Below are positions 40,299 through 62,579 of a DNA stretch of 64,000 nt, one piece after another. A model generated the notes under the pieces. It was given only the letters and a program-made list of their open reading frames with translations, ran no database searches and had not been told where the DNA came from. Made by a program: the position numbers and the translations under genes. Location: assembly GCA_025617375.2 (NCBI GenBank), contig JAMYGW020000013.1:248001-312000 (forward strand), in the 5' to 3' direction. The stretch's first letter is position 1, and the number at the start of each line of letters is the position of its first letter. The stretch is from Acarospora socialis (Eukaryota; Ascomycota; Lecanoromycetes; Acarosporales; Acarosporaceae).

Positions 40299-40833
40299 GA
40301 GACAGCAGCTACATGTAGCTTCATTCCACTGTCCGCTTTACGCACTGCATTGTGGTGATCTCGAGCAATATGTAAAGCTTCATCGCGACTGTGTACAGAT
40401 AATCACGTGATCCTTGGGCTACCGCCTGCAGCTCCAGCACTTGCCGCAGCTTAGTGCTCGTGTTCTTCAAATCAGCGCGGTAGATCACTCGTGGCTCCGC
40501 TTCCAGCTTTCGTGGCATTCTATGTAAAATTAATGGGTAAAAGACTAAGTTGGTCCATGCGACTGCATAAAAGACTTCGCTGGTCGACGCCACGAATAAA
40601 AGACTCGGATAGTCATTTCTCCGATGACTTCCAAAGGTTCGCTGCCACTTAACCACCAAAACACCTCGCTGTCGCCCACATTCAGATACTATTTATTGTG
40701 ACATTTACACCTCATTGTTGCGCATCAACTAAAGCTGAAATAGTAATACTTTTGTTGAAGTAGATGACTCAGATCATGCTTACTAAGCAAGCATTTTTGA
40801 AAGCATAAAGACTACACATTTGTGATTAGATTT
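40299..40833. other. Border between gene-rich and AT-rich compartments
   Basis: Base composition shifts sharply at about 40,680-40,740; the last CpG before the transposon block that I saw is at 40,721. The stretch 40,541-40,640 holds a degenerate tandem repeat. No gene is supported; the glucosidase promoter presumably lies at its left end. Confidence 0.7.
40541..40640 (+). repeat. Degenerate ~29-bp tandem repeat, homologous to 47,340-47,420 inverted
   Basis: Three units each begin TAAAAGACT and continue with a TGGTC/TAGTC core. A 62-bp part (40,551-40,612) is homologous, in reverse orientation, to 47,354-47,415 inside the AT-rich block. The two differ only by C/T and G/A changes. This copy keeps its CpG sites and serves as a near-unmutated reference. 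Confidence 0.8.
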
Positions 40834-41007
40834 TGTTGAAATTAGAAGGCTCTTTAGGAGTTCAACCCTATCTGGCCTAGTGTCAGAATCTTCTGTATCA
40901 TGTGATACACTTAGTCATCACACACAAAAGTTATTCTTTGTGTATTCTAGTCTTCTAGATAATTAAGACACCTAATATCAAGCAATAAAAACATTTCAAT
41001 TTCAACA
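40834..41007 (+). repeat. Copia 5' LTR
   Basis: 174 bp, starts TGTTGAAATTAG and ends CAATTTCAACA, so the ends are TG...CA inverted. It matches 47080-47253 and 47424-47599 along its whole length, differing mainly by C/T and G/A changes. Confidence 0.93.
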
Positions 41008-41009
41008 GA

Positions 41010-41019
41010 TTATGAGCTC
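41010..41019 (+). other. Probable Copia primer-binding site
   Basis: TTATGAGCTC starts 2 bp inside the 5' LTR. It is complementary, with one C-to-T change, to the anticodon-loop region of initiator tRNA-Met (tRNA sequence recalled from memory). This fits half-tRNA priming as known for Drosophila copia and yeast Ty5. Confidence 0.5.
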
Positions 41020-41249
41020 AACTTTCTGTCTTATCTAGAATGTTTTCTTGTCTTCAATTGATCTTGCTGTCATCATTTCAACAGCATCTTTTCTCATTTT
41101 GATAATCTATCTGAGTGCTTTCTCAAACAATTCTTTTGTCACTTCAATATTCTCAAATGACATTCTTCTTTTTCATCTTTTTCAATAGTCTATGCATTTT
41201 GATGTTCATTTTGCAGAAACAATTCACATAATTATGACTTCTTTGAATG

Positions 41250-42258
41250 ACACTTTCAACTTCTCTTGTCTTGCTGACACTGATAACTATGTCTCATGAA
41301 CTATTAACATTAAGTTTGTTCTTATGAACAAGAATCTATGAGCTGTTATTTTCAATACTTTCTCTGAATTCATTGTCACATCTAAAGCAGTCAACAATCA
41401 GAACTCAAAGTTCTCACTGAAATACATTATCTGAAGTAGAAAAAACAACAGAACATGTGTTACTATAGTTTTTTCTTGTTAAAACAGTTCTAAAAACTTT
41501 ATTCAAGATCTATCTGTTCATCAGATGTGATTAAAACTGAAGAAGTTGTATGAGATTTAAGAATTTAATGTCAGATATTTCACATTCACTATGCTTCTTG
41601 ATCATCATTACAACACTTTTAAGTTCATTAAAAACTATGTTGATCAGCTTAAGACTTTATCACAACATTTAAAAGAGATAAATTTTATCTTTTCAAACTG
41701 AATTATACTTACAATTCTTCTTAACAATCTGAGATCTACTTTCAATGTCTTTGTTATGACTAAATATCAATTTATTTGAGTCATTATTTCTATCTTTGAT
41801 GCTCTCACTGTCAAACTCATTGATGAGACTAAAATGAAAAATAATAAGATCTCAGTGATCATGATCTTTTGAGACAAAAATTTGAACTTAATTTCTAAAT
41901 CAAACTTCAAATTAATGTTGTCACTTCTTTGCACTCACTGCAAGAAGACTGATCATAAGAAACATAACTGTTTTCTTAAATATTTTCATAAGAAGAAGAA
42001 ATTTGATATAATTAAGTTTGTTAAGCAAAAGAGCAAGAACAAAGACAAAGTGATTAAGTTATTCACTTCATTCAAGTTTAGTGATAACAATATCACAACT
42101 CTTAACTTTATAACTTATGTCAATGAACTTCATTCTGATACTCATATCATTAAGTTTTATTTCAAAGTTCATGTTTCTGAGTTTCATTTTGAAGTTCATA
42201 ATGTTGTTGAGCTTTATTTTCATGCTTATGTCATTGAATCTCATATCATAAACATATG
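41250..42258 (+). pseudogene. Copia gag remnant with CCHC zinc knuckle
   Basis: The frame, read through stops, gives a Copia-type gag: MNKNLWAVIFNTFSEF with TGA at the conserved Trp. Then from 41,882 there is an intact 125-codon stretch whose LCTHCKKTDHKKHNC (Cys at 41,930 to Cys at 41,971) is a textbook C-x2-C-x4-H-x4-C nucleic-acid-binding knuckle. Stop codons upstream make it non-functional. Confidence 0.85.
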
Positions 42259-42479
42259 AGCTGTCAACACTGCAATCTTTGATCACTTATGCTCAACATA
42301 TGAGTTTTTCATCATCTATGAATCTTTGATAGATTTCTTTTTACAGTTAATGAAGTGACTAAGATCATAGAAAAAAATTAAGTTTCTTTATGTTTAGTCT
42401 GTTCTGATGAAGATATATAAGAGATTATTCTTAATAACATTATACACTCTCTTATCATCTTTGCAAATCTCATTTTCAG

Positions 42480-43200
42480 TATTTGTATGTGAATTGAAGA
42501 CATTATGTTCAACATAAAGAATTGCATTTTACATTATAATGACAAAATCATTGAATATGCATCTGAAGTTGATGACTTATTTTGATTACAACTTAATGAT
42601 ACACTTCAATCTCATGTCTTTGTGACTAATAAAAAGTTCAAGATATCTTTTAAAACATGACATTGTTGACTAAATCACTTAAATCATGTCAATATCAAGT
42701 AACTGATCAAGATTGTTGATGATATTGATCTTAAGAATCTTTCTAAATGTCAAGATATCTGTAAATTATGCATTAAGATCAGACAGATGCATTGTTTTTA
42801 CAATGTTTTTATTGAGTGAATAACTCAATCACTAAATCTTGTTTATTCAGACATTGTTGAATCTATTACACTCATTACTTATAATGATTCAAAATGATTT
42901 GTTATCTTCATTAATAATTTTATCAGATTCATCTGAATGTTTCTCATGAAGTTTAAGATCAAAACAGTTAAGCATATCAAGAATTTTGTCACTTTAATGA
43001 AGACAGATTGTTCTAACTATTCTTTAAAATATCTTTGCATTGATTTTAAGTGTAAATATCTTGTTCTGAAGAACTGATTCATCATTAATGAAATTACATG
43101 AAAATCTACTATGTCTTACTCATCTGAAGAAAACAGCATTTCTGAATGACTGAATTGCACTATTTGTGAGTTCATTAAAGCTATGCTCAAAGACTTTAAT
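42480..43200 (+). pseudogene. Copia GAG-pre-integrase and integrase remnant
   Basis: At ~42,650 the expected H-R-R-L-G-H motif reads H-Cys-stop-L-N-H, explained by CGT to TGT, CGA to TGA and GGT to AAT. The integrase zinc region (CQDICKLCIKIRQ) and the first catalytic Asp block (LVYSDIVESIT) follow. Many TGA and some TAA stops interrupt the frame. Confidence 0.75.
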
Positions 43201-43850
43201 CTGAAGTTTTATTTCTGATTAAAAGTTATTTGAATTGCTATTTATTTAAAGAATTGATCTTTTACTTGTACACTCAATACAATACTCTATGAAGCATGAA
43301 CAGACAATGTTTCTGATCTCTCAAGTCTTTGTGTTTTTGATATTACTGCTTGAACACATATTTCTAAGAAATGATGTCAGCAAGAAGTCAAATTTGATGA
43401 TCACAGTCTCAAATGTCACTATTTAGACATAAATAATAACTCTATTTATCATGTTTGAAACTCAGAATCAGAATATATTCTTATTACTCATAATTGTTTT
43501 GTGAAAGAAGATATTAATGTCTATGAAAACATAATTAACATAGAGATCTACAGCAAGAAAAAGACATTTAATACTGTTAATCTTTCTTTTAATTTCTTAT
43601 TTTCATTCACATCTTTGTCATCACAATCTTCTTTCTTTTCAGAAGAAGTTTTCAGATCAGTTACATCATTATTGTGATTTTTGCTTTTACAGTGTTTTCA
43701 AGATCTTTGAGACATCAATTCAAACAATTCTTGTTTATTGAACACATCTTAATTTAGTATGTTCAGCATAGAAAATCAAGACTTAACACTGTCTATTTGA
43801 TATTTTATTATTGCTCAGTTATCTTTTTCATCAATACTGTTTAATATTAT

Positions 43851-44817
43851 TTATTTATTTATTTATTCTTCATACATCACATGCAACTATAGTAGTTATG
43901 ACAACTTAGTAGAACATTTGTTGAATATGCAGATTTATTCTGACAATTCATATGTATAATATATGAATTACAGATTTATTCTGATAATTCTAATTGCTTA
44001 TTGATCACTTCTGAACAGTCAATCTGATTGTGGGTCTCAGTGATCAGTAGTTAAGGAAATTTGAGATTTGATGTCTAAATAATAGATAAATAATTGTGTA
44101 TATAGTGTCTTTTATAGACAACTAAGATCTGTAGAATTTTTCATCACTTGTTTTTCTTATACAACTGAATGACTTGGTGGTTGATTTGGTGAGTGGTGTG
44201 GGATTTGAACTCACAATCTTTGAAATTAAGCAATATACTAGTGGGGTCACTACTTCTCTAGTTTTTCACTTAATTTCTTAGATCACTCAAGCAGTATACA
44301 TTCACTATAGGGTGGTTGTGTGATATAGTGGACAGTTTACCACGCTGGTAGCCTTTTTAATTTAAGTGAAAATTCATGAAAGTAGTGATTCCAATTGAAT
44401 TTCTCACTTAAATTATAAGATTGTGGGTTCAAATCCCACACCTCCCACATACATTATTCACTGAGCTGTTCAGTTGTATAAGAAAAACAAGTGGTGAAAA
44501 TTCTACAGATCTTAGTTGTCTATAGAAGACACTATACACACAATCATTTATCTATTATTTAGACATCAAACTTCAAATTTTCTTAACTATTGGTTGCTGA
44601 GACCCACAATCAGGTTGACTGCTCAGAAGTGATCAATAAGTAATCAGAATTATTAGAATAAATCTGTAATTCATATATTATACTTATGAATTGTCAGAAT
44701 AAATCTGCATATTCAACAAATGCTTTATCACAAGTCATCATAGTGCATGTTTGCTGATATAGACTATAAAAGGAAGAATAAATAAATAAATACATTCACT
44801 ATACTGCTTGACCATTC
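43851..44817 (-). mobile_element. SINE copy D, interrupted by SINE copy A
   Basis: Reverse-oriented SINE. Its TTTATTTATT tail complement lies at 43,851, and its tRNA-like head runs to 44,309 and resumes at 44,804-44,817 after a nested forward SINE. Flanks carry a perfect 14-bp duplication CTGTTTAATATTAT (43837-43850 and 44818-44831). It belongs to the same subfamily as copy C, with CTAG-ended hairpin arms. Confidence 0.88.
44310..44789 (+). mobile_element. SINE copy A, nested in copy D
   Basis: About 480 bp. It begins exactly at GGGTGGT (44310-44316), which pairs with ACCTCCC (44440-44446) as a 7-bp tRNA acceptor stem with one mismatch. The T-arm is a perfect GTGGG-TTCAAAT-CCCAC (44423-44439) with a Pol III B box. 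The element ends in AATAAATAAATAAA. A 14-bp duplication ATACATTCACTATA (44296-44309 and 44790-44803) marks its insertion into copy D. A ~19-bp hairpin sits between the A-box region and the T-arm. Confidence 0.92.
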
Positions 44818-44929
44818 CTGTTTAATATTATGATTGATTATTCTTTTCTTCATTTTGAATTCTCATCTTTGTTATCTTCATCTCAGAATTCTCAACTTTC
44901 TGACTTCTTTGATGACTCTGATGCACACT

Positions 44930-46520
44930 TTTTGTATGTATATATTGCAATCTCTTTGAGCAATATCATCAAATCTTCTATCTATAAACAAGTCATTGAG
45001 TTATCACTATACAAGAAGTGAAAGCAAGTGATGAAGAACAAAATACATTCTTTAAAGAAAAACAACATATAAAAAATGATCTCTGTGTCATCAGATCAGC
45101 ATGTTCTTCAAGAATATTGAGTGTATAAGATTAAGCATGATGCACATGATCAAGTTAGTTGTTATAAGACTCACTGAGTAGTCAAGAGCTACAAACAACA
45201 ATTCAGCATTGACTATGATCAAATCTTTGCATTTGTTGTTAAGTCACAAATCTACAAAGCTTTTTTCATCTTAATCACTCATTTTGATCTAGAGACTGAG
45301 TAAATAAATATGACAATCACATTTCTTTATAATTCTATCAATCAGATTATCTATATAAAGCTTTTTTATGAATATGAACTTTCTGACATAATTGTCTTAC
45401 TTAATAAGATTTTATATGATTTAAAGCAGACATCTTGTCTTTGATATAAGACTCTACACAATCATCTTATCTCTTTTAATTTTCATCATCTTAATTCTGA
45501 TCATAGTGTCTTCTTTTAAATCAATGACAGTGTTATCATCACTGTCTACATTGACAATCTTTTTCTTATAGAAGAGAATAAATCAGTTATTCAAGACATC
45601 AAAGTACATCTTATTAACATTTTCAAGATGTCAGATCTCAGTTCTGTGTTCTATTATTTAAGTATGAAGATTGAGCACAATCATTTTGAATACACTATTT
45701 ATCTTATTCAGACAGTCTACATTAATAAGATTCTTAAGACATTTCAACAGTTGCAGACAGTTTCTGTCAACATATTTATGAATTTTAGTGCAGTACTCAT
45801 GAAGAAGTTCATCACTCAGACTGACATCATCACTATTTAATGCTATCAAAAGACAGTAAAATCACTAATATACATCATGTTACAGATGTATTCTGACATC
45901 ATCTTCATCATCTTTATCATCAGTCAGTTTGATCAGAATCTGAATGTCTCACATTATAATACTGTCAAGTAAGTCTTCAAATATCTCACTGACACTATAA
46001 ACTTGAGTGTCATCTATAGCATCACTGATGCAGATCTCATTGACTACATCAATACTGATTAAAACAGATGTTGCAATACTCAGAAGTTCACTGACACTTA
46101 TTTTTTTTTTCTCTTCAAAAATTCTATTAATTGATGTTCTAAATGTCAACAAATTGTTGTTTTGTTGTTCACTGAGTTTGAATACATGATTGAAACACAA
46201 GCAACAAAGAAAGTCATATAACTTCATCATTTTCTTACAGAAATTGACTTTCTTGATAACAATGATTTTATTGTTATTTGTGCTGACAATTGTGATGTTA
46301 TAAATCTAGCTTGAAACTCTGAGTTTCACATTCACATTAAGCACATCAATATTCAGTATCACTTTATTCATGAAACTGTCAATTGCAATCTCATCAATCT
46401 TGAGTTTGTTTCTACATCTGAACAAACAGTTAACAGACTCATTAAGTCTTTATTTATTATCAAGTTTTGTTGCTTTTTTAGTCAGCTAGATCTTCTAGCT
46501 GCAATGACTTTATAAATCAA
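44930..46520 (+). pseudogene. Copia reverse transcriptase and RNase H remnant
   Basis: Reading through stops gives the Copia RT order: EYWVYKIKHD, SIDYDQIFAFVVK (family: GIDYDETFAPVVK), KILYDLKQTSCLWY (LYGLKQ) and VYIDNLFLIEE, the catalytic Y-x-D-D at ~45,544 with its second Asp changed to Asn. VSVNIFMNFSAVLM and an RNase H part with DADLIDYINTDW follow. Many stops are TGA at expected Trp positions. Confidence 0.88.
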
Positions 46521-47079
46521 ATCAATGAAACATCAATTAGTTGCAATCTGAGTAATTAACTTACTTATTTATGAAGTATGACAGATCATAGTCTACATCA
46601 TAGCAATTAAGTTAACTTCTCAAATTATCAACTAATTTTTTAATCACATATTTAAGTTCTAATCTCATCATCACTTTCTTTGTCAACTAAAACTTATGTC
46701 AACAACATTATATATTGAATTGACAGAACATTCATTAGTGATGATCAGAATAACTGACTTAACAAGTTCATGAAGTATAACAGATTATAGTTTACATCAC
46801 AAGATTGTCAAATCAGTTCTTCTCAATTATTCATTCTTTTTTGTTGCACATTCAAGTTCTGATCTCATCATTGCTTCACTTTTTGTGTTTTTACTATGTC
46901 TTTTTTCTTTTCATCTCATTCTCACTTTCTCATCTCACTGTTGTCTCAATCTTTTTTATGATTTCTTCATCATCTCACTGTCAAATCTATCTCTTAATAA
47001 AATCAGAAAATCTATACTGACTAATGAATAAGTATCTAGATTGTTTAGAATGTCTAGATTGACTAGATTTAAGAAGAAG

Positions 47080-47253
47080 TATTGAAATTAGAAGACTCTT
47101 TAAAAGTTTAACTCTATTCAGTTTAGTGTTGAAATCTTCTGTATCATGTGATATGCTTAGTTATTATACACAAAAGTTATTCTTTGTGTATTCTAGTCTT
47201 CTAGATAATTAAGACATTTAATATTAAGTAATAAAAATATTTCAATTTCAACA
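47080..47253 (+). repeat. Copia 3' LTR
   Basis: 174 bp, same length as the 5' LTR. The first base pair of the terminal inverted repeat is changed (TATTGAAATT instead of TGTTGAAATT). It is followed by the GATTT target duplication. Confidence 0.92.
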
Positions 47254-47423
47254 GATTTGTAATGATATGAGAACTACTATACTCTGTAAAGACATTGTGA
47301 TTATGAATTTAGATAATGCAAAAGTTGTAGAAAATTTTGATGTTGAGTTGACTAGCAAAGTCTTTTATTTGTGATGTCAATCAGTGAAGTCTTTTATGCA
47401 GTTACATGAATCAACTTAGTATT
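47254..47423. other. Spacer between Copia copies, with inverted homology to 40,551-40,612
   Basis: 170 bp of the pre-existing target DNA. Positions 47,354-47,415 reverse-complemented match the compartment-border tandem repeat. Ten of 62 positions differ, all C/T or G/A. Confidence 0.8.
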
Positions 47424-47937
47424 TGTTGAAATTAAAAGACTTTTTAGAAGTTCAACTCTATTCCATCTAGTGTCAGAATCTTCTGTGTCACATGATATCA
47501 CTTAGTTATTACACACAAAAGTTATTCTTTGTGTATTCTAGTCTTCTAGATAATTAAGACATTTAATATTAAGCAATAAAAATGTTTCAATTTTCAACAA
47601 ATTATGAGTTCAACTTTCTGTCTTATCTACAACATTTTTTTATCTTTAATTAATTTTGCTGTTATCATTTTGACAGCATCTTTTCTCATTTTGATAATCT
47701 ATCTGTGTGCTTTCTCAAATAACTCTTTCTCAATAATCTATCTGCATACTTTCTCAAGTTGTTGTCTCAATATTCTCAAATGATGTTCTTCTTTCATCTT
47801 TCCAATAATCTATACATTTTGATGTTCATTCTGCAGAAATAATTCACATAATTATGACTTTCTTAAATAACACTTTCAACTTTTCTTGTCTTACTGACAT
47901 CAATAACTATGTCTCATGAGTTATTAATGTCAAGTTT
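47424..47937 (+). mobile_element. Second Copia copy, 5' fragment only
   Basis: A third LTR (47424-47599, 176 bp) is followed by AATTATGAGTTCAACTTTC and the start of the Copia interior. It is co-linear with 41,008-41,320, then breaks at AAGTTTATT where SINE sequence begins. The remainder of the element is missing from the window. Confidence 0.88.
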
Positions 47938-48099
47938 ATTTATTTATTTATTCTTCATTCTATGCATGCAGCTATAAAAGCTATGGCATTTAATAGACAT
48001 ATAATGAAAGATGTAGACACAAAACAAACTTCAAAATCTTGTACATGTGAATAATTAATCTGAATACTTTTTGATCACTTCTGTTCAGTCAATCTGATG
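47938..48099 (-). mobile_element. SINE fragment G, divergent subfamily
   Basis: Starts with a TATTTATTTATTCTTC tail complement and ends with TTTTGATCACTTCTGTTCAGTC, both shared with full SINEs. The middle is shorter and different. The head is absent, so it is a 3'-end fragment or a second SINE type sharing the tail. Confidence 0.6.
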
Positions 48100-48576
48100 T
48101 TTTATTTATTCTTCAATTTTATAGTCTATATGCAATGATATATGTTATGACAGACTTGTGTTAAGGTATTTGTTGAATATGCAGATTTATTCTGACAATT
48201 CATATGTAATATATGAATTACAGATTTATTCTGATAATTCTGATTGCTTATTGATCACTTTTGAGCAGTCAACTTGATTGTGGGCCTCAACAGCCAATAG
48301 TTAAGGAAATATGGGGTTTGATGTCTAAATAATAGGTAAATGATTGTGTATATAGTGTCTTTTATAGACAACTAAGATCTGTAGAATTTTTTTCTCACTT
48401 GTTTTTCTTATACAGCTGGATGACTTGGTGGATGGTTTGGTGGGTGGTGTGGGATTTGAACTCACAACCTTATAATTTAAGTGAGAAATTCAATTGGGGT
48501 CACTACTTTCATGAATTTTCACTTAAATTAAAAGACTATTGAAGTGGTACACATTCACTGTACCACTCTACCACTC
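48100..48576 (-). mobile_element. SINE copy E
   Basis: Reverse-oriented, about 477 bp, with the same tRNA-like head (complement of GTTCAAATCCCAC visible near 48,447), hairpin and TAAATAAA-type tail. Its head abuts the decayed LINE at 48,577. No clear target duplication was found. Confidence 0.85.
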
Positions 48577-48584
48577 TTTGATCT

Positions 48585-51500
48585 TTGTTGCATGCATCAT
48601 TGCATTTCTTGCTGTTATAGTCTGGCAGTCTATGCAAGTATGCTTTGAAATAGTCATGACCTAGTTTCATTTGTGTAAAAGTAGCAAATGAAAGTCTGTC
48701 TGCACTTTTCAGATCTTCTTTGATGTGAAAACTAGGTGTTTGATCAAACTGAGCATAGTATCTTTCTTGAGTTGTCTTTTTCCAGTGGGTGGTTCAGTTT
48801 TCCAGTGCTTTGATCTTGATTTTGTGTTTGATATAGCTAATAGATGTAAATCTATCAATATCTGATGAAATTGACTGCTTTGCACCTGATTTTGCAGCTT
48901 TATCTGCTATTTCATTGTCTTTAATGTTCTCATGTTCAGGGACCCAATGAATATGAGGTGTAACTTCATAATCTATGAGTTTTTGAAGAGTTTCTTGACA
49001 TTTAATAGCTAGATGCTGTTCAGATCCTTGATTTGTGATTTGAATTCTTTGTATAGCTGCTTGATTGTCTGAAAAGATTCATATGTCTTTGATTCTTTGA
49101 TATTTCATGATTTCTTTGAGACTTAACTTCAAAGACTGTGAAATTCCAAACAATTCAGCATCATAGACTTTCATGATGGTTTCTAGATTTCAAAATTGTT
49201 GATGTATAATATCTTTATACATGTAGCAAAGACCTGCACCTAGATTTTCATCTAGTTTTGACTCATCTGTGTACAAAACAGCATTTTTAAACTTGATTTT
49301 CTTAGAGAAAAGTGTTTCTAGTCTCTTTAGATGTTTCAAAGTAGTCAGTTTCTTGTCAGATTTGCTGATTTGAATGTCTATGTTTAATAAAACACTTCAA
49401 GGTGCACAGCATAACTCATTTTGAGTTGAAATCTTCAAATTTAGTGTTTCTGATAGATATTTGCAAATGCTATATAGCACTTTAATCAACTGAGTTGGGT
49501 GTTTCTTCTTAATGAGAGAGTTTGAATGTTGATTTCAGTCAAGATAATGATTTTCATCAATATTACATTCAGTTTCAAGTTCTGATGAGTAGATGTATGA
49601 AGTTCTTTGTCTAATTGAATGATTTTCTGACAAAGTAGCTATTCTTAAAGCATATAGCTCTGTTTTTTGATCAAGTTTAAATCTGAGTGATAATATAGCT
49701 GATTTTAGCTTCATATCAGCTGATAATGAAGATCTAAATGCATCTAGAATTTTTCTAGTTGCTGAATTTTGAAGTTTTTGAAACAGCTTTTCAAAATTCT
49801 TTTGTTGTTTTCACCATACTGGACTTCCATAGTCACTTATAGATGTAATGCAGACTGTGTACAGCTGTTTTCCAGCTGATGTTGATAAACTTCATTCAGA
49901 ATTCATCAGTCTATGCAGTAAATGCAATGTTCTAGTTGCAGAAGCTATTTTCTTTTGTATATGTGTCTTAAAAGACATTTTAATGTCAAATCAAACACCT
50001 AGTCAGTGTACAACTTTAGAAGAATGTATAACAGTGTTATTTGATAGTTTTACTGTTGATATAGCTTGATTTTCTTTCTGAAAATGAATGAGTTCTGACT
50101 TGCTGTCATCAAATATAACTGCATTTTCTTCAGCTCATTGAAATGCAGTTTTTGTGACTGATTCTAATGTTTTGCTGTTGTCTGCAGCTGTTTTTTCTTT
50201 CACAATAATAGTCACATCATCAATATAGCTTGATAGCTTTAGTTGAGTGTGTTTATTGTTGATTTTTGTGAATAGAAATCACATATAGATCAAAAATAGC
50301 ATTGATGATATAGATGATTCTTGTGGAATTTCAGAATTGACACTTTGTGAGTGATTTTTTTCATCATCAAAAGCTAGAGCAATTGTTCTATTTGTAAGAA
50401 AGCATTGCACTCATTTTAGTACAGTTTATGATAAATGTAGTCTTTTCATGACTTTTAGCAGTTGATTTAAAGACACATAGTTAAATGCATTCTTAACATT
50501 CAAGAATAAAGCTGTCAAGACTTTGTTGTTGTTGATTGCTTGTTGAATGTCATGTGTTAAACACATAGCTGCATTCACAGCTGATCTTTGCTTTCTATCA
50601 CTCATTTGCTCATGATATAGCAAGTCTGTGATTTCAGTTCAATAGAAAAGTCTTGTTGTTATTATCTTTTCAGATATTTTGCTCAAGCAATTTAGTAGAG
50701 TGATTGATCTATATGCTTTGAGTATTGAGTAGTTTACTTTGTCTTCTTTTCTCAGAATTACACCAGTTTCTTGACACCAGCATACTGAATGATAGTCTTG
50801 ATTTATTAAAACTGAATAAACAGTGTGAAATAACTCAGATATAGCTTGATATGCATATTGAATTATCAAAAAGAACAATTCATCTGGTTCAGGTGCTTTC
50901 TTTGTTGATGAAGTCATAATGATTTGTTTTATTTTCTTAGAAATGACTGAAAATCATGATTTTGTTGAGCTATTATCACATTCTAGCTCAACTGAATTGA
51001 TTTGAGGTGATTTTGGAAACATGATCTCAAGAAAGATATCACACTTGTCTTTAAATATGAGTTTCACTTTGCTTTCATGCTTTATAAATGATGTTTTCTC
51101 TATTTTTTGTGATTTAGTGTAGTGATATGCTGTAAAGACATCTTTTTCAGCTGCATCTTGCAGAAAAGTAGTTCATGAAGTGTGTTTGACTTTTTGAATT
51201 GCATGAAAGTATCTATTATTTATTTATTTATTCTTTCTTTTATAGTCTATATCAGCAAACATGCACTATGATGACTTGTGATAGAGCATTTGTTGAATAT
51301 GCAGATTTATTCTGACAATTCATAAATATAATATATGAATTACAGATTTATTCTAATAATTCTGATTACTTATTGATCACTTCTGAGCAGTCAACCTGAT
51401 TGTGGGCCTCAGTGATCAATAGTTAAGAAAATTTGAGGTTTGATGTCTAAATAATAAATAAATGATTGTGTGTATAGTGTCTTCTATAGACAACTAAGAT

Positions 51501-52846
51501 CTGTAGAATTTTCATTATTTGTTTTTCTTATACAACTGAACAGCTCAGTGAATAATGTATGTGGGAGATGTGGAATTTGAACTCACAATCTTATAATTTA
51601 AGTGAGAAATTCAATTGAGATCACTACTTTCATGAATTTTCACTTAAATTAAAAAGACTACCAACATGATAAACTGTTCACTATATCACACAACCACTCC
51701 ATGAAAGTATCTATTTCTTGCATTTCTAAACTGATTTCAGTTTTCTTGTGATTTGTGATGCTTTCAGTATCTTTTAAAATCACTCATTTCAGTTCTGAGT
51801 ACTGATAATGATTCAGATCATCATACTTTAGCTTTTGAGCAGAGTTTTCTCTTTGATATATGCAGATCTGCTGCATTTGCTATCAAATTTCTAAGAGAAA
51901 TAGCTATTTCTTTTAGATTTTGATTTGATGATGTTTGCATTAAGCTTTGAATTTGAGTATCAGCTTGTGTTGAGTTTATTTGCAGTGTTTCTGCAAATTT
52001 AACTCAGTCTGCTTTGTCTATGTTGTATGATGCACTCAGTGAACTTTCAATTCATTCAGACTCATTTGCAGTTAATTCAAACTGAATAACTTCATGATCT
52101 GATTCAGACTCCATATCTTGCTTTACTTGTCAGTTTCTTGTGAAATTGCAAAACAAAGATGTTGCAAATGTCAAATCAATCACTGATGTTGCATTGTCTG
52201 AGTGATGTGTATAGATGTTTGTGTCTGATGTGTTTAACAGCTCATAGTTGTGAATTTTTAGTCAGTTTATCAAAGAAGTAGCTCTTATAGAGTTTTCTAT
52301 TGATGAATTTCATTATGCATGATGTGCATTAAAATTTTCACAGATAATAGCTCTTTGTGATAGTTGAATTGCTGTTAAACATCTGTCTATGATTCATTGA
52401 TCATTGTTGATTTGCTGTGACTTTTCATTGTATATATTAAGTAACAGTATACTAGAAATTTCATTTGCTGAAATACTGAGTATTTGCAAATCTGAGTCTT
52501 TTGACAAGTCAGATCTTGATATACACACTAAATTTTGTTTAGTTTTAGACACAAATGTCATAGTTCTAGATCTAAAATCTTGATTTGATGTGAATATCAA
52601 ACTAGTAAAAGATGAATGTGAAATAGTGATTTTGTTGTCTCTTGCAATTCATGATTCTTGAAGAAGAACTATGTCTGCAGTTTTTGTAGCTGAATTCAGA
52701 CATAAGTACATGACATTCATAGATCTTGCACAGTTGTGTTGTAGAATGATGATTTGTGATGAATTTATTGTGTTATTCATGACATTTTCATAGATAGTGA
52801 ATCTGCTGTTGAAGAAATAGACTGTAGTGCTTTGAAAACACTGCAT
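48585..52846 (-). pseudogene. LINE ORF2 endonuclease-RT-RNase H remnant
   Basis: The endonuclease begins at IILQHNCARSMNVMYLCL and contains ADIVLLQES (catalytic Glu). The RT has a partly open stretch (TSSTKKAPEPDELFFLIIQY). Its catalytic box is SSYIDDVTIIV at about 50,214-50,226, followed by FQ-stop-AEENAVIFDDSKSEL, where the stop TGA stands for a conserved Trp. RNase H shows YTDESKL, KVYDAELFGI, SDNQAAIQRI and HWVPEHENIKDNEIADKAA. A terminal Cys/His motif ends at CNACNKD. It is interrupted by SINE copy F and by many TGA/TAA stops. Confidence 0.88.
51218..51699 (-). mobile_element. SINE copy F inserted in the LINE
   Basis: About 482 bp, reverse. A perfect 16-bp target duplication CATGAAAGTATCTATT flanks it (51202-51217 and 51700-51715), and LINE sequence resumes directly afterwards. 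Tail TATTTATTTATTC complement and tRNA-like head are both present. Confidence 0.93.
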
Positions 52847-54366
52847 TCTGCACTATTTGCTTGATGTTTTTCATCACAATTGCTGCATTTATAGACTATA
52901 TGTGCACAAGTGATTTCTTTTGACTGTGTGAAACAAAGAAAACAGTCATGTTCTCTAGTATTGTGATTTTCTGCACAGAATTGACAAGTGTCTTTGTTTT
53001 TGCATACAGTTTGCAAATGTTCAAATTTTTAACACTTTCTGCATTGATCTGTTGACTTACATATGTTGTAAACTGCAGTTCTGACTGATGTTTCAGTTAT
53101 TATCAGTCTGTTTCTGAGTAGTTTCTGAATTTCTTGTTCTGATTTGACAGTCAAAACAATAGAATTATGCAGTTTTTCTTATCTGACTTCTTCTGAGATA
53201 AGTCAGTGTGATAGAACAGTTAGTTTAATGTTTTTATTGAAGATTTCTACTTCATCTTTGACTAGTTGCATGTCTTCTTTGTTGTTGAAAATAGCTGTGA
53301 AAATTCCATGTGCTACTATTTTGTATCACTTTTCATTCTTTGTGATTTCTATGAATTCAGATAATGAATTTCAGATTTGTTGATGTTTTAGCAAGTCTTC
53401 TGCTGTGTCTTCACTGGTTGTGAGCACTATACTAGCTTTGAATTGTGAAATAGCAACTGTGAAAATCAGCAAATTGTCTATTTTTGCTGTTTTAAGTGTG
53501 TTGTTGATTTTGTTGTGCATGTCTATGACATTGATAGTAGTTGTGAATGTTTTTGACTTCATAACTAGATGTCTTTCTCTGAAAGTAGTGAGTTTATTCA
53601 CTACTTTTGACTTTGATACTTTTTTTTGAACAGTTGTTCATGAATTTTGAGCATTTTGATCTTTGCTGCTTGCAATTGATGCATATGTAGCTGATTTGAC
53701 TGTTTTTGTTGATGTTGATTGTTCAAAGCTGATTTTGTTTGTCTGTACAAAGTTAATAAAGTTTATTTTGTTTGTCTAAAAGACAAATGCTGATTTCTCT
53801 GTGGTTTCTGACTTTGTTTTAGACATTGTGTGAAGAATTTTGTTTAATTTGATGTTGACTTCATCTTTGAAGCTGTCTAGTTGTTGTTGAACATTTAGTT
53901 TCTGATGAAATGTTTCATCTGACTGTTTGAGTGAATCTAGATTTGCATTTTGTCTTGCTTGATTCAGTGTCTTGATGCTAGTTTCTAATTCTTGTTGAAC
54001 TATGAGATTTGTGAATTGCTGAATAGCTTGCTTGAGGTAGTTTCTGACTTGTTGAAGTAGTTTGTCATCATTTTGACTTTTTGAGTGTAGATTTGTGCAG
54101 TTTGCATGATGAGTTTCATGCTGATTTGATTCTTCATCAGAAGAAATAGCTTTTAGCACTGAACTGACAATGACTTTTCTCTTTTTAGACTTTAGAATAG
54201 TCTTTTGAGAAGATTTCATGATGATTTGTGATCTCAACAGATCTGGTGAACTCATAAAGAGTTGTGAAAGTGCTGTTTTTGATGATTTTTGTTGTTTTGT
54301 AGGTGTTTTTGGATTTTCTAGATTGAAATCTTGCATGAAGTTGCTGAAATTCAGTGCAAAAGTCAT
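52777..54366 (-). pseudogene. LINE ORF1 (gag-like, CCHC knuckles) remnant
   Basis: A 196-codon open stretch at 54366-53776 starts the protein with a Lys/Gln/Ser-rich region and a coiled-coil-like part. Later pieces give the knuckle array: CKNKDTCQFCAENHNTREHDC and CSNCDEKHQANSAEC near 52,850-53,010, typical for nucleic-acid-binding LINE ORF1. Several stops lie between pieces. The frame overlaps the ORF2 start by ~70 bp. Confidence 0.75.
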
Positions 54367-54430
54367 GATATGAGATGTTTTTGAAATTCATTCTGTTCAA
54401 ATTCAAAATTCTATTCAAATTTAAATTCAG

Positions 54431-55899
54431 AAGATCTATGTTTAGCAGTAATTATCTAGTTTTTGAAGATAAAAACTAGATTTTTCTGAGATTCTAGATT
54501 ATAGAAGCTTTGAATTCTTATTTCATCTAGAATAGACTGTATTCAATTGTTTAATTCAGATGTTGCTTAATATCTCAATTCATCTAGAGTAGATAAACTC
54601 TACAATAGACTTTTATCAGCTCTACTATAAGCAAGACTATACTATAAGTCACTCAATCACTAAATCTTGAAACAGATGTGTTTAGAGCAAGATTTCTATG
54701 TGAAGTCTTGTATTTATATCTTAACTACTCAGACAACATTGTTTGTCAGTCTGAGCTTTTATCAGCAGATAGAACTAGAAAATAGCTATCTGCTTATATT
54801 CTTCACTAGATCTTTGTGAGATGCTTTTAGTGTAGAGTATGTCTTCACTGATAGGTTCTTTCTGCATGCAAAATGCTAATCAATTGACAGAAGAAATGCT
54901 CAAATTCCAGCTAAATTTGTCAAGAAATAGCTATTTTGCAGCTAGTTTTTGTGGAAACTGCATGCAGTTGCTGAAATTGAGCAATTTGATGTAATTCAGT
55001 CTGTAATGCTTAGAAATTTGATCTGAAATGCTGGTTTTTGAGTGAAAATAGCTGAAAAGTAGTTGATTTTGTTGATAAACTAGCTTGTTTTGATGATAGA
55101 GCTATGTAGGTATGTTGTATGATGCATGAATTGATGTAGCTTGGTGTGTATAGACTGGAATTGCTGTGTAGTTGATGTAAAAGTGATGTTTTTGGTGTTT
55201 TCTTGGTTGTATTGGTGTTTTTGGTGTTTTAGTGTGAGTGAGACTTAGTTGAGATGTCTGATGATGCTTGGTGCACAGAAATTCTGTCAAGCAAGCTAGA
55301 AAAATTTAAGTGAAAATTTGTGAACTTCAAAAAATCTAGATACTAAGGGGTACAACTAAACAGTTCAACAACTTTGTGTGCAATAAAGATATCAAAAAGC
55401 AGTAACAGTATGAATTTTAGAAGAGGTCAAGGTGAAGAAAACTGTCAATTCAGATTTTTCAAAAACACATTGATTGTGGTGATGCTGATGTTCAAAATGT
55501 TGTTTTGAGTTTTTGACTGAAGATATGTGAAAAATTTTCACTGAATAGTAATTGAGATCCCTCATCATCAGTATTGATGATGAAGATAAGCTGTTTTGAG
55601 AGTTTATGAAAGTGAATGAGACAAAGAATTTGCTCTATTCAGAATTTTGATAGCTGGTTTGGTTGTGGTTCTGTGGTTTTTCTGCCATTGAGCTTGTTTT
55701 TGTTGTGATATCAGTCTGTAATGATAGTGAGTAGATATTGAGCTGAGATATGCAATTGAGATCACATATATTGACAATAACTTGTTTCTTGTGTTTAAAC
55801 AGACTATTCAATATTATTGTTTTTCAGACTATGAATATCAGAAAGTCAAATAAAATAGACTGAGTTGATCATTTTATTCACTCTTGATAGTGTAATTCA
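54431..55899. other. AT-rich sequence upstream of the LINE, unclassified
   Basis: CpG-free. The right-hand neighbour of the LINE start probably includes its 5' UTR. A reverse frame at 55102-55290 with a THTKTPKTPIQPRKHQKHH repeat and the word TACTAAGGGGTACAAC at ~55,340 stand out, but I cannot classify them. Confidence 0.5.
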
Positions 55900-57185
55900 T
55901 CAAACTTATCATTCACTAGTTAGTGCACTTCTTTCTTAAGTGAATATATCTGTTTGAACAGCTTAACTGCTTTTTCTTCTCAGTTCTTCTTTAAGAAAAT
56001 CTGCAAATAGTCTGATTTCAAAATGTTTACAGTTTCATCACAGTTCTGTCATAAGTCTGAGTAAGTCATCACAACAGTAACAAAAGTCATAACTTTGACA
56101 GATCTATCACTGTATATTGTAATACTGTTAGATAAACAGATCTTAGACATATCAGTAGACTTAGACAGACATAGAGTAACAAATTCAAGGTTCTCAATAC
56201 TGTCAGCATAACAACTCTCTTTTTTGTATTTCACAATGTGACTGAGATGAGCATGTTGAAGAATAATCATGTTGGTGAACTCATCATTTTGAATGTGAAC
56301 AAAGAACATATTTGTGTCAACAATATAACTGTAAGTCTTCAGATAGAATGAATGAAAAACTAAGTCTTTATTCTTTGAAAGAGACTGTTTTTCTGTCTTG
56401 ACTGCAATCTGTTGAACTGATTGTGATGATATTACATTCTTAGTGAAGAATCTAACAATTTGATGTGTATGATTCTTTTATGAAGTAATGCTTAGATTCA
56501 CTTGCATGTTGCAACATTTTTCTATAATTGTCTTTCATGATAAAATATCTGTACTGATTTGTTCTGATTCTATAACATTCATATAAATAAGAAGATTAGT
56601 TCAAAGATTATCAACAAGATAAATATCACAAATTATGTAAGCAACAGCAAGTTTTCTGTTCAATTTTTTGAGTAGATATAGATTCAGACAAACATACTTT
56701 CAGTATTTATGCATTTGACTGTCAATATCTTGCACAGTTATCTGACTCTTAGTGAACTGAATAACAGCATTGAACAATCTGACTAGTAGAAATACTCAAT
56801 TTACTAGTGACATGATACACTCAGTGTCTAGACAGACTGCTTCAATGAAGTCTTCATCAGACTTGAAACAAAAAGATATGATCATGTAGTGTTAATTGCA
56901 AAAATCACAATCAGATTCTTCAATAATGTCAGCTGCATCTAATTCAACAATGTCAATGATGTAGATCTTCACATTATTAGTAGCTATCAACATTGTCTTA
57001 AGTTTCAGTTTTAAGATTAAGCTCTTAAAAACAGACTTCTTGATCTTCTCATGAGTTGAATGAACATGCTGATGTAACTTGTTATTTGATTGAAAAGTTG
57101 TCTTACACATGTGACAGACATATGTAGTAAGAGTGTACACATGAAAAATATCAAGATGATAAACTGATTCTTTAAATAATTTCAA
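55900..57185 (-). pseudogene. Probable Ty3/Gypsy pol fragment (C2H2 finger and protease-linker region)
   Basis: Two open pieces. At 57185-56892, YVCHMCKTTFQSNNKLHQHV plus HSTH is a C2H2-like finger that I recall from the front of some fungal Gypsy polyproteins. At 56309-56049, MFFVHIQNDEFTNMIILQHA followed by HLSHIVKYKKESCYAD resembles the linker after the aspartic protease (family style: PLRIPRRTRLGTVVEY). RT, integrase and LTRs were not identified on this strand. Confidence 0.5.
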
Positions 57186-57189
57186 GATA

Positions 57190-58597
57190 GATGCAGCAGT
57201 ATCACTGTGACTGTAATTTGTCTGTTCTTCTTCTTTATTATCTTTCTGATAGATGTCATCTTCATAATTATAATTGTATTTTCTTATATATTCTTCACTA
57301 TTGTATACATTCTCAGCAATGTCTTCATCAGATAATTCAAACAGAATTGATTTGTCATGATATACTGACTGCAGTCAAGATGAATAATGTGACTGATAGA
57401 AAGAATGTCAATTATTTGAAGCATTTTGACAGAATTGATCATTACACTCAACATACTCATTTTATAAATAGATAACATTGTCAAAGATGATTTGCAGAGA
57501 CTGGTGATAAAGAATTTGAGAAGATGAAGAAACATTTATGTTGATGTAAGACTGCAGTGAATATGATTGATACAGCTAATAAGATTGATTGTAAGTATTG
57601 TTCTGATAGAGTTGATAAGAAAATTAAGACTCTTGAAACTAGTCATACAGATAGAATTGACAATTATTGTTGAAATTGTTATTATCTTGTTATCAACACT
57701 GTTACTGCTGAGTTAACTGAACAGATGATCTGATAGATTCAGTACAGCAGTTGTACTTATTGAATCATACTTTCTTTATATTCTTCATGTCTTTAATGAA
57801 GAAAGACATCATTGTTACAGTATTAAATCATTGAATACTTTTGCAAAGACTAAAATCAAAACAGTTTCAAATTCACATCAGCTGAACAGATGTCTTGATC
57901 ATTCTAATGTTCTTTGTGTGACATATAATGTTCAAGACAAAACTCAATGATTCTCAGTTGTTTCACACATCTTGAATAATGTATCATTTTATTTTCAAGA
58001 CTTTCATGACATTGAATTGAGTACACTTAAAGCAACAAAACAACATCTTCTCTCATCATTCTACATTATGATCTTTTCATATATACTCACACTTTATTGT
58101 CAAAAGCTGTTCAATATATCAGTCTTGAGTGATATAACAAAGACATTTGTTAAGATTTCAACACACCATTCTGTCAGTCTTGATATCAATTACATTTTTA
58201 AAGAAGTCAATGAATAAATGCACATCACAGAAGTAGATCTTTTCTTTAACATTAACAATATCATTGAAGTCATAATTCTTCATATTCAGATGCAGATTAA
58301 AGAATCTTACTTTTTCAGATCAAAATCAAGTGTCATTATTGTTATGTTGTTTTCAGAATGCATTCAATCAATCTGAAACAAATTTATCTGAATTATCTGA
58401 GTTGTCAGAATTGTCAGAATCTAACTTATATTGATATTGTCAAGACAGGTTTTGTTGATCTGAATAAGATTGCTTGAAATGATGAGATAGATTCACTGTA
58501 CAGTGAGAATCAGCTGAGTTAACTGTCTCAACATGATCTTTAACACAACTGTCTATCTTAATCTGTGCAATCATTCTGTAAAGTATTTACATCTGAG
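57190..58597 (+). other. Decayed coding-like stretch, unidentified
   Basis: A frame around 57,890-58,330 stays nearly open if TGA is read as Trp and gives a coherent sequence (NNVSFYFQDFHDIELSTLKA, SDITKTFVKISTHHSVSLDI). An adjacent frame shows CKYCSDRVDKKIKTLETSHT and NYCWNCYYLV, a possible zinc motif. It looks like a transposon-encoded protein, but I do not recognise the family. Confidence 0.4.
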
Positions 58598-59076
58598 GAG
58601 TGGTAGAGTGGTACAGTGAATGTGTATCACTTCAGTAGTCTTTTAATTTAAGTGAAAATTCATGGAAGTAGTGACCCCAATTGAATTTCTCACTTAAATT
58701 ATAAGGTCATGAGTTCAAATCCCACACCATTCACCAAACCATTCACCAGGTCATCCAGCTGTATAAGAAAAACAAGTAAGAGAAAAATTCTACAGGTCTT
58801 AGTTGTCTATAAAAGACACTATATACACAATCATTTACCTATTATTTAGACACCAAACCCCATATTTTCTTAACTATTGACCATTGAGGCCCACAATCAA
58901 GTTGACTGCTCAGAAGTGATCAATAAGCAATCAGAATTATCAGAATAAATCTGTAATTCATATATTACATATGAATTGTCAGAATAAATCTGCATATTCA
59001 ACAAATACCTTAACACAAGTCTGTCATAATGTATATCATTGCATATAGACTATAAAATTGAAGAATAAATAAATAA
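58598..59076 (+). mobile_element. SINE copy B
   Basis: 479 bp, forward. Perfect 13-bp duplication ATTTACATCTGAG (58585-58597 and 59077-59089). Head with GAGTTCAAATCCCAC B-box region, hairpin arms AATTTAAGTGAAAATTCA and its partner, and a GAAGAATAAATAAATAAA tail. It keeps several CCC and GG runs but no CpG. Confidence 0.93.
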
Positions 59077-60375
59077 ATTTACATCTGAGCATCAGAAAAT
59101 ACTGAATTGATTAGCAGTATGTTTTGATTGCTATTCTGATGACTTTTATTGTCATTGTTATTGATTATTTCTTGTGATAGAAATGATTCACATAATATAC
59201 TTTTGTTAACAAAGAAAAACATATGCAGATGAGTTTTAGAAGATGTTGATTTATGTGACTGATTAGTTTTTGAAGATGATGATGCTGTAAATAAATTGAA
59301 GTTGTGTAAGATAGAAACTATGAATTGATGAAAACTTCACTCAGCTTAAAATGAATCTGACTGATCTGATTGATCAGACTAATTGATATTGTCAGTAAAC
59401 TGAAATGAGATTTACATTAAAAATGCTGAATGATTCAATAGAGATGTCAAGTCATTCTTGAAACAGTGAATGATCTTGATAAAACTACTCTTAATGAATG
59501 ATCAACTGATAGAATACTCTAAATCAGAAAATTGACTGATATTCTTATAAGTTTGTTGAAGATCTGATGTATCAGCAAACTGATATCTGATGAAAATAAA
59601 GTATAAGATGATGATTCTGTGAGCTAAATCAATGATGTTGTTTGATATTGAGAAGACATAGACATGATTCATGAATTCAAACTGCTTTAGCTGATAAACA
59701 GCTAGAATACATCAGTCTGATAGACAAGATAGATCTTAACTTGATGACAAAGCAGCTGAACTAAAATCTACTGATGAGTCTGTTGAAGACTTTATTAAAG
59801 TAATAACTCATGAACAGAAGTCATAAGAGTGATGAGTTTGTATAAAGAATAATTAAGTAAATATAAACAAAAGCAAAATAACATCAACAGTGAATTGAAC
59901 AAGTAAGACTAGATAACATTGTCTGATAAAATTGTCATCATAAATATGTCAGACAGATAAGATCTAACAGTTAGGTAAATGGTAGACAGTGAAAACAGTC
60001 TTGATAAGATTGACAAGCTCAATATGTTGAAGATCTAATGAGTTCAGTGAGATAAAATCAGACTGATAGTGTTGTATGAAGATGATTGAATTTAAGACAC
60101 AAATCAATGATCATAGACTCAATGATTTGTACAATTGGTGCTATCAAATTATTAGAATCATTATACAAGTGAGTGAAAGATGTAATTGCTAAAGAGCTAC
60201 CTATGAAAAAACTCTGCATATATGTCTCTCATGAGTGTCTTTCATATCTAGCAATCAGTTCATTAAGCTCATGATGTCAGCAAGATTGCAAAGTGATCTG
60301 ATGAAACACATTTGACAGTAAAATTAAGACTGAGACTAATCTGATTTATAACACTCTTATTATTATGCAGATAAT
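59077..60375. other. AT-rich decayed stretch, unidentified
   Basis: CpG-free. With TGA read as Trp, long coherent forward segments appear (EFKTQINDHRLNDLYNWCYQ near 60,090; LKSTDESVEDFIKVITHEQK near 59,760), suggesting one or more dead transposon proteins. No known motif was recognised. Confidence 0.4.
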
Positions 60376-60863
60376 GGGGTGATCAAGTGGTATAGTGAAT
60401 GTATACTGCTTGAGTGACCTAAGAAATTAAGTGAAAAACTAGGGAAGTAGTGACCCCACTAGTATATTGCTTAATTTCAAAGATTGTGAGTTCAAATCCC
60501 ACACCACTCACCAAACCAACCACTGAGTCATTCAGTTGTATAAGAAAAACAAGTGATGAAAAAATTCTACAGATCTTAGTTGTCTATAAAAGACACTATA
60601 CACACAATCATTTACCTATTATTTAGACATCAAACCTCAAATTTCCTTAACTATTGGTCACTGAGGCCCACAATCAGATTGACTGCTCAGAAGTGATCAA
60701 TAAGCAATCAGAATTATCAGAATAAATCTGTAATTCATATATTATACTTATGAATTGTCAGAATAAATCTGCATATTCAACAAATGCTCTATCACAAGTC
60801 ATCATAGTGCATGTTTGCTGATATAGACTATAAAAGGAAGAATAAATAAATAAATAAATAAAT
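60376..60863 (+). mobile_element. SINE copy C
   Basis: About 488 bp, forward. Same layout as copy D: head GGGGTGATCAAGTGGTATAG, hairpin arms GAAATTAAGTGAAAAACTAG and CTAGTATATTGCTTAATTTC, B-box region GAGTTCAAATCCCAC, and a (TAAA)n tail. I found no clear target duplication. Confidence 0.88.
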
Positions 60864-61909
60864 CTAACTTTATAATTGAGAAATCTCAGTTGAAACATAA
60901 CATCAGATTGAATATCAGTAGCTAGAAGTCTTCAATCAGCATACTCAATGTCACAGTCAAGAATCACATTGGCTTTTTCTACTGAATGATCACAAAAGTT
61001 ATATCTCAATTGACTTTATTGAGTACTGTCAAAGTCATCACATCATAGCTCTTTGTTTTTCTTCTTATTCAACTCATTTCTTATAATCTCTGAATATTGA
61101 AATCTTTGAACTCTTAAGTAAAATCTACAAGAAATATGTTTATCTACACTTTCATTATGAAGCTGTGACTATTAACAAGCTAAACTTTCTATTCTATTAT
61201 CAGAGTGCTAAAATGAAGAACTTTTTCAAACAGAATACTCTCAGTACATGATGATTAACTGATCTTGTTTTTTACAACTCTGACATTGTTATCACAAAGC
61301 TTTTTCATTTCAAGACTGCTTCTTACACTATCTTTATCAATGAGAATGAAGTTCAGATCAATGTTTCTGTTATATTTTATACTGTTACTTAAATTAATGA
61401 GATTGTTAGTGCAATTCTGTCAGATATGACATCATTGTTGTATGTGTGAGTTTTAAATCTTAAGAACACAGTTCTGACAGCTGTTATGAATAGAACAATT
61501 CTACAGTGAATTAATCAAAAACTGTTGAATAAACAGCAGCAGCAGTGATGAAAGAAGCAGTCATGAAAGACTGTTGTAAAAACTCAAGTTCTTACTGTCA
61601 ACAAAAATAGAACTCTAGTGCAGAAGAAGAAGAATAAGAAGAAGAATTTGAATAAGAAGATGAAAAGATATTATGTATTGAGAGATAAAATTGAATTTGT
61701 GAAGTTGATCTACAAGAAACTGACTATGAACTACTTAGTCTTCATGTAATTAGTTATTCTAGACAACATCTACCTACTCTCTGTAGAATGAGTTGAATTA
61801 GATGACAGTGAGAGTGATAGTGAGATGACTCACTTAGATAACTAACTTGAGTAATTGACTAATACATTATGAAAGTGATAATTTGAATAAATCAATAGTA
61901 TTTTGATAT
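60864..61909 (+). other. Decayed coding-like stretch, unidentified
   Basis: Reading TGA as Trp, 61,130-61,800 gives a coherent chain (KMKNFFKQNTLSTWWLTDLV, FYNSDIVITKLFHFKTASYT) ending in a strongly basic Lys/Arg region (QKKKNKKKNLNKKMKRYYVL) and an acidic tail. Probably a transposon-encoded protein; family unknown. Confidence 0.4.
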
Positions 61910-62570: not shown

Positions 62571-62579
62571 ATTACATTG

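Follow-up and report, generated by a model that had tools for sequence, protein, structure and literature searches.

The window analysed here is a 64,000-nt stretch of the Acarospora socialis genome (31.1 Mb in 38 contigs), positions 248,001 to 312,000 of contig JAMYGW020000013.1 (G000:C13:248001-312000 in our numbering). Its gene-like part (1-40500; GC content 0.515, observed/expected (O/E) ratio of CpG 0.92) includes a glucosidase gene and is followed by an AT-rich block of nested transposable elements (TEs), among them a miniature inverted-repeat transposable element (MITE) split by a long terminal repeat (LTR)-type element, a long interspersed nuclear element (LINE), and short interspersed nuclear element (SINE)-like insertions (Table 1). 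In this block cytosines followed by G or C (CpS, as distinct from CpW, in which A or T follows; both strands were scored) are strongly depleted. Comparison of repeat copies revealed C-to-T mutation under a CpS rule that is real and strong, and stronger than the initial annotation of this stretch had stated.

Between positions 40501 and 64000 the GC content is 0.295 and the O/E ratios are 0.03 for CpG, 0.23 for CpC, 1.53 for CpA, 1.20 for CpT, and 0.66 for TpA. Sorted by the next base, the fraction C/(C+T) is 0.49 before A, 0.067 before C, 0.007 before G, and 0.34 before T; the corresponding values in the gene part of the window are 0.61, 0.47, 0.47, and 0.53. The AT-rich DNA starts at about 40.8 kb, the final CpG ahead of the block being at 40721 and the single later one at 44343. 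The same composition recurs in 35 repeat-anchored loci (L013-L047, obtained with a 299-nt SINE core or with 10-kb stretches, some overlapping each other and the window): CpG O/E is at most 0.02 in 30 of them, and across all 35 CpC ranges from 0.02 to 0.81 and CpA from 1.26 to 1.69. The five CpG exceptions are three loci that straddle block edges (L025, L027, and L042) and two that carry young LINEs (L044 and L047). On the gene side of the window element CpS is present up to 113 bp from the element. Five other element flanks were sampled; CpS reaches up to 129, 60, and 19 bp in three and two lie in CpS-free DNA, the 19-bp value (L087) depending on an assumed edge position because the terminal motif was not found there.

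The split MITE allows the mutated and the intact state to be compared within one element. The initial annotation had paired 40,551-40,612 with the reverse complement of 47,354-47,415 and had regarded the two segments as homologs rather than certain parent and child. The pairing is real but its register was off by two; the partner is the reverse complement of 47,352-47,413, no alignment exists in the register first proposed, and the full length of the match is 76 bp (40,540-40,615 and 47,349-47,424, 62/76 identical). The segment has 21 matches in the genome, and six of these form three inverted pairs, spaced by some 350-380 bp, that are the ends of a MITE of about 470 bp. When 40,481-40,835 of the window is joined to 47,258-47,500, the product aligns, junction included, to the L002 MITE (84.9%) and the L005 MITE (83.6%), and the two segments are therefore the terminal inverted repeats of one MITE, parted by the LTR-type insertion. 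This rules out their being two dispersed repeat copies. The differences within the 62 bp number 13 and not ten (the ten first listed are those up to 40,594); 11 are C-to-T or G-to-A, as all had been said to be, and two, at 40,607 and 40,609, are transversions. Every CpG is changed, one of them on both strands, as first described, but there are six such sites in 40,551-40,612 rather than five. Four CpC/GpG sites are indeed changed at the 5' C; a fifth, at 40,607, had been overlooked and displays only a transversion of the adjoining base. No CpA or CpT change was seen within the 62 bp.

Table 1. Features of the window, with coordinates counted from its first nucleotide.
Feature	Position	Strand	Remarks
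GH63 glucosidase gene	38.0-40.1 kb	-	In the gene-like part
MITE, left part, about 300 of about 470 bp, unmutated	40535..40833	+	Left terminal inverted repeat at 40540-40615
GATTT target-site duplication, left copy	40829..40833	+	Directly before TGTTGAAA
AT-rich block, CpS-depleted, with nested transposable elements	40834..64000		Defined by composition
LTR-retrotransposon-like element with TG...CA ends, inserted in the MITE	40834..47253	+	5-bp duplication GATTT
Inverted pair of SINE-like elements inside the LTR-type element; one is truncated, the complete form being about 486 nt long	43910..44793		Inverted arms
GATTT target-site duplication, right copy	47254..47258	+	Directly after ...TTTCAACA
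MITE, right part, 166 bp, CpS-mutated, between two LTR-type elements	47259..47424	+	Right terminal inverted repeat at 47349-47424, the second segment of the initial annotation
Second LTR-type copy, start (terminal repeat and adjacent sequence)	47425..47940	+	Terminal repeat 87% identical; match 1-485 at C13:295426-295940
LINE (non-LTR retrotransposon) piece, CpS-mutated	48577..51217	+	Aligns to the copies of L044, L045, and L047
SINE-like insertion of 486 nt within the LINE	51217..51702	-	Inverted arm; flanking LINE alignments share about 16 nt of L047
LINE continuation beyond the SINE insertion	51700..55680	+	3981-nt alignment to L047, 92.7%

MITEs in the gene compartment retain CpG (O/E 1.01 in L002 and 0.80 in L005), and the majority of three copies from gene-rich DNA was used as the reference for polarity. 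In the right half of the split MITE changes were found at 7/10 CpC, 7/12 CpG, 4/20 CpA, and 0/16 CpT sites, that is, at 14/22 CpS versus 4/36 CpW (Fisher p = 6e-5), a CpS excess far above chance. In the left, gene-side half the corresponding counts are 1/35 CpS versus 10/81 CpW (p = 0.17). With one half of the same element intact and the other mutated, the mutation must have happened in place. The mutated remnant is the 166 bp of DNA between two LTR-type elements, and the intact one faces the genes. In Neurospora, a second, DIM-2-dependent pathway of repeat-induced point mutation (RIP) acts on single-copy DNA flanked by repeats (PMC12543289).

The rule was quantified in 24 copies of a 2301-bp LINE segment among the 40 matches listed, with polarity set by column majority; in these and in the SINE counts, columns lacking a 60% majority were dropped, as was one 511-nt LINE fragment. 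Mutations were found at 460/2537 CpC (18.1%), 34/190 CpG (17.9%), 101/9098 CpA (1.1%), and 118/7181 CpT sites (1.6%), and reverse changes (T-to-C or A-to-G) at 178/35280. CpC is mutated 11-16 times more than CpT or CpA, and it exceeds CpW in 23 of the 24 copies; in the window copy alone the mutated sites are 73/106 CpC, 4/4 CpG, 13/380 CpA, and 17/300 CpT. The combined CpG-plus-CpC rule of the initial annotation thus holds when C-to-T rates per next base are compared in repeat families, and neither outcome that had been named as speaking against it, CpA as the main context or CpC changed no more than CpT, was seen in the LINE. Expressed as hazards per cytosine the values are 0.22 for CpG (8 cytosines per copy), 0.20 for CpC, 0.011 for CpA, and 0.017 for CpT, with CpT slightly above CpA (p = 0.004). 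Since the per-cytosine rates of CpG and CpC are alike and CpG offers a target cytosine on both strands, CpG would be lost about twice as fast per site. Among 19 younger copies, segregating sites comprise 88/118 CpC, 7/8 CpG cytosines, 32/383 CpA, 31/303 CpT, and 50/1487 A/T.

The base 5' to the cytosine matters little in this family, with CpC rates from 0.14 to 0.23, a range of at most 1.6-fold. C5-methyltransferases follow a 3'-neighbour rule, and an effect of 11-16-fold for the 3' neighbour against at most 1.6-fold for the 5' neighbour is the pattern expected of such an enzyme. APOBEC-type cytidine deaminases, on the other hand, read the 5' neighbour, and the dominance of the 3' neighbour here makes an APOBEC/AID/DddA-like deaminase acting on repeats or transcripts a very improbable source of the changes, even though the genome contains seven matches to the dCMP/cytidine deaminase domain (the one family searched), a number expected of housekeeping enzymes.

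The LINE itself appears to carry a mark of CpG mutation. Its 873-aa open frame (endonuclease and reverse transcriptase; L044:7110-9731, minus strand) contains 6 CpG compared with about 88 expected from its amino acids, and CC plus GG number 133 in the coding sequence versus 218 expected. Arginine is encoded by AGA in 26/31 cases and NCG codons are absent, so that the frame looks adapted to CpG mutation. In the presumed 5' end of a LINE (L047:6000-6900) 19 CpG occur in 900 bp, with few elsewhere in the element, and a promoter may need them. The near absence of CpG beside a moderately low CpC makes the pressure on CpG look older or stronger, as it would if two processes operated, methylation and deamination at CpG and a separate RIP-like enzyme at CpC. 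We regard this division as decidedly improbable, given that the per-cytosine LINE hazards of CpG and CpC are alike and that a single rule with a target on both strands already predicts the faster loss of CpG. Because the frame is CpG-poor even where it is open, some depletion has been inherited, and for this reason the CpC gradient across loci was set aside as a record of pure kinetics. Inheritance could also be extended to the whole pattern, with foreign or ancestral AT-rich composition, or a chance match, in place of any mutation; the polarised changes within families and the intact and mutated halves of the split MITE contradict this explanation, to which we give practically no credence.

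The LTR-type element in the window has terminal direct repeats of about 174 bp (approximately 40834-41007 and 47080-47253) that are 87% identical; a 125-aa frame inside it, the sole frame whose domain search was completed, was without a Pfam match. Its interior (41400-43700) contains 0 CpG and 0 CpC and has 41 other matches in the genome, which are scattered along the contigs. Seventeen copies of this 2.3-kb segment were compared, the window copy and 16 of the 41 other matches. Together they retain 0 CpG and 5 CpC, along with 10,243 CpA/CpT (5589 CpA and 4654 CpT). The copies are about 15% divergent with a transition:transversion ratio of 31.9:1, and 951 variable columns are purely C/T or G/A versus 62 of other kinds. 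At sites with a shared next base, C/T differences occur at 33% of CpA and 37% of CpT. CpA and CpT had initially been thought to be spared; they are also mutated, more slowly, and these figures indicate that CpW is attacked once CpS is exhausted, with little preference between A and T. The 5' neighbour has hardly any effect in this family either (rates 0.24 to 0.29).

The SINE counts point in the direction of the rule but weakly: in 11 distinct copies (those of at least 440 nt, with identical ones excluded) mutations were found at 24/151 CpC, 48/750 CpA, and 38/572 CpT, and no majority CpG was available to score. The genome holds 46 matches to the 299-nt SINE core, a figure that counts the core itself. 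Pairwise comparison of the window block and five 10-kb stretches gave 122 alignments, in which C/T differences were expressed as a share of C-bearing sites. Over all of them the share is 9% before A, 54% before C, 70/104 before G, and 11% before T. In the 61 alignments at 85-95% identity it is 505/6284 (8%) before A, 1053/1542 (68%) before C, 48/48 before G, and 422/4931 (9%) before T, and in the 19 above 95% identity 4%, 30%, 21/55, and 5% before A, C, G, and T, respectively.

Several further observations concern the SINE-like elements and their surroundings. One of the copies that include 44407-44448, 58693-58734, and 60470-60511 carries a tRNA T-arm-like motif, GTGGG-TTCAAAT-CCCAC; in the other two the left arm reads ATGAG or GTGAG, which G-to-A change in GG would partly explain. 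A search of 38000-64000 against Rfam gave no match at the gathering threshold. The overlap of about 16 nt between the LINE alignments at the inserted SINE is consistent with a target duplication. On several contigs the LINE and SINE matches are concentrated in a single main region (among others C1:2654-2804 kb, C8:204-255 kb, C10:180-305 kb, and C13:289-351 kb), and these regions are possibly centromeres. In the gene-rich part of the window, 10004-10183 holds three tandem 60-nt units that are 68-72% alike and possibly represent a repeated protein segment.

C:G to T:A transitions dominate between repeat copies, as in RIP (transition:transversion 31.9 in the LTR-type and 9.7 in the LINE family), and in the window, the sampled flanks, and the split MITE the changes are confined to repeats and the DNA between them, with single-copy genes spared. 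The CpA preference of classical RIP is absent, LINE CpA being mutated far less than CpC. A process that works like RIP but lacks this preference is best classed as a RIP variant. The standard RIP indices do not register it. In six AT stretches TpA/ApT is 0.66-0.74 and (CpA+TpG)/(ApC+GpT) is 1.48-1.62, the gene part of the window having 0.71 and 1.18; RIP is indicated by a rise of the first index and a fall of the second, with published cut-offs of >0.89 and <1.03 in one paper and >1.15 and at most 0.75 in another. The AT blocks measured therefore score as free of RIP by the usual indices.

The initial annotation had suggested a check for cytosine methyltransferases, and RID-like and DIM-2-like genes are present. 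The PF00145 profile gave four matches at three loci (L009, L010, and L011). L009 encodes a predicted 1077-aa frame with DNA_methylase and DUF7893 domains and a BAH match just below the cut-off (29.9 vs 30.8 bits). Its best solved chain is 9bap (1.3e-191), which we take to be Neurospora DIM-2, and several of its relatives are named 'Dim-2', including one from Pleopsidium flavum with 62% identity over 100%. On this basis the predicted protein is DIM-2-like. At L010 the frame that matches PF00145 contains PPCQ and ENT motifs, the domain is split by a probable short intron, and the frame ends soon after the domain; a 'hypothetical protein' of Pleopsidium flavum is 51% identical. We call this candidate RID-like from general features of RID and from its difference from L009 and L011. 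Pleopsidium flavum (Acarosporales, lichen fungi) provides the closest named relatives of both L009 and L010, further matches without a species name reaching 85% and 73%. The methyltransferase stretch of L011 (C8:612909-616397) matches 7r76 best (2.5e-67; the entry is named Rad8), presumably Cryptococcus DNMT5, and from that stretch L011 appears DNMT5-like. It occurs in an ascomycete that also has DIM-2- and RID-like genes; a 2026 review (PMC13297926) tables DNMT5 under Basidiomycota and some Mucoromycota and mentions it for Verticillium in the text.

We consider it probable that a RIP-like process, directed at repeats, inactivates the TEs of this genome by C-to-T hypermutation that targets CpS on either strand and strikes CpA and CpT more than 10 times less often. 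The changes would come from a C5-methyltransferase, RID-class and/or DIM-2-class, probably in the sexual cycle and directed by repetition; this enzyme would recognise a strong and not a weak 3' base pair, and CpG would vanish first. The sharpest challenge to this model is passive decay, in which heterochromatin is methylated at CpG by the DNMT5-like enzyme (maintenance) and at CpC by the DIM-2-like enzyme, and 5-methylcytosine slowly deaminates without any repeat-induced mutator. Genes for both enzymes are present, strand tracts are absent, and the LINE CpC:CpT and CpC:CpA ratios are merely 11-16, which deamination of 5-methylcytosine could give. We nevertheless think passive decay unlikely. 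Pairwise transversions are 0.34% (2171/631672) in the LINE and 0.45% (1390/311217) in the LTR-type family, and by that clock the two are of similar age, yet 82% of LINE CpC survive and almost no LTR-family CpS does, so that the loss is not clock-like. If genome-average starting composition is assumed, the estimated CpS dose differs 40-fold between the two families and the estimated LTR-type CpS loss is thousands of times the transversion divergence.

A number of observations weigh against a repeat-directed mutator. How many CpS the LTR-type family had to begin with is an assumption, and the LINE transversion count may be inflated by subfamily structure. At least 70% of CpC is kept in 21 of the 24 near-identical LINE copies, and repetition by itself is therefore not followed at once by mutation. 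Neither strand runs nor a strand correlation was found, and a single processive pass is thus not visible. A LINE singleton test for episodic mutation gave p = 0.46 over all copies, a count that is uninformative, since most of the CpC mutations sit in two old copies, and p = 0.057 when repeated without five old copies. The outer edges of LTR-type elements are partly spared as well, with seven CC/GG and no CpG at the gene-side edge of the window element (40848-40971) and 13 CpS just within the assumed edge of L087 (700-800); compared with the near-empty interior, this is possibly an edge effect of the mutator. Given the missing strand tracts, the surviving LINE CpC, and the non-significant singleton tests, that the mutation is directed by repeats is something we infer.

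The process resembles RIP of Neurospora in its both-strand C-to-T changes in repeats, AT-rich blocks, spared genes, RID/DIM-2-like genes, and mutated inter-repeat DNA. It differs in that CpG and CpC are the leading contexts, ahead of CpA and CpT, whereas N. crassa has the order CpA>CpT>CpG>CpC (PMC5496416), and in that TpA/ApT is not raised. In T. reesei CpA and CpG are mutated alike, followed by CpT>CpC (PMC5496416); the strong mutation of CpG is shared, but there CpC is least favoured and CpA a main target. A CpG signature at C-to-T sites of TEs was described for Tuber, Microbotryum, and rusts (PMC4352252), a survey that names CpA, CpT, and CpG signatures and whose main text does not contain the term CpC. 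Among lichen fungi, Cladonia rangiformis resembles the present genome in its AT-rich TE compartments, which are sharply bounded against gene space, and in its RID and DIM-2 homologs (PMC12542154), with 'CpG' and 'dinucleotide' absent from the text, and the repeats of Endocarpon pusillum present the classical index shift (1.47 and 0.70; PMC3897900), the opposite of the present genome. The initial annotation knew of no combined CpG and CpC rule, which was too strong; for Coccidioides, judged to be of a different fungal lineage from the closest named relatives here, a review cites some evidence that repeats are mutated at CpG and CpC, and the combination is therefore not new in print. No description of a near-absolute CpS rule with measured CpA/CpT rates was found in the literature searched, which left most subscription papers outside its coverage; PMC8982387 and PMC5602860 contributed nothing ('CpC' in the latter is a strain code). 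What is new is how strong the rule is, its kinetics, the lineage in which it occurs (Pleopsidium being the nearest named relative), and the failure of RIP indices based on CpA to register it.

From 1,239 fungi, a survey published in 2025 concluded that a preference for CpA is common to RIP-like defences (PMC12543289), and repeats that lack CpG and CpC yet retain CpA are a strong counter-example. Standard RIP tests would miss the CpS process. The finding raises a testable question, namely what sets the 3'-neighbour rule in an enzyme of the RID/DIM-2 class, and quantitative handles come from the CpG and CpC rates, which are nearly equal, from the split MITE as a natural experiment, and from the LINE, which is open although it has hardly any CpG. 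Tentatively, and as a possibility that we would not quite call probable, the RIP system of this fungus may belong to a class of switched specificity that reads a strong rather than a weak 3' base pair, is RIP-negative by CpA indices, and is maybe common and overlooked, and to which the resident LINE would have responded by coding almost without CpG.

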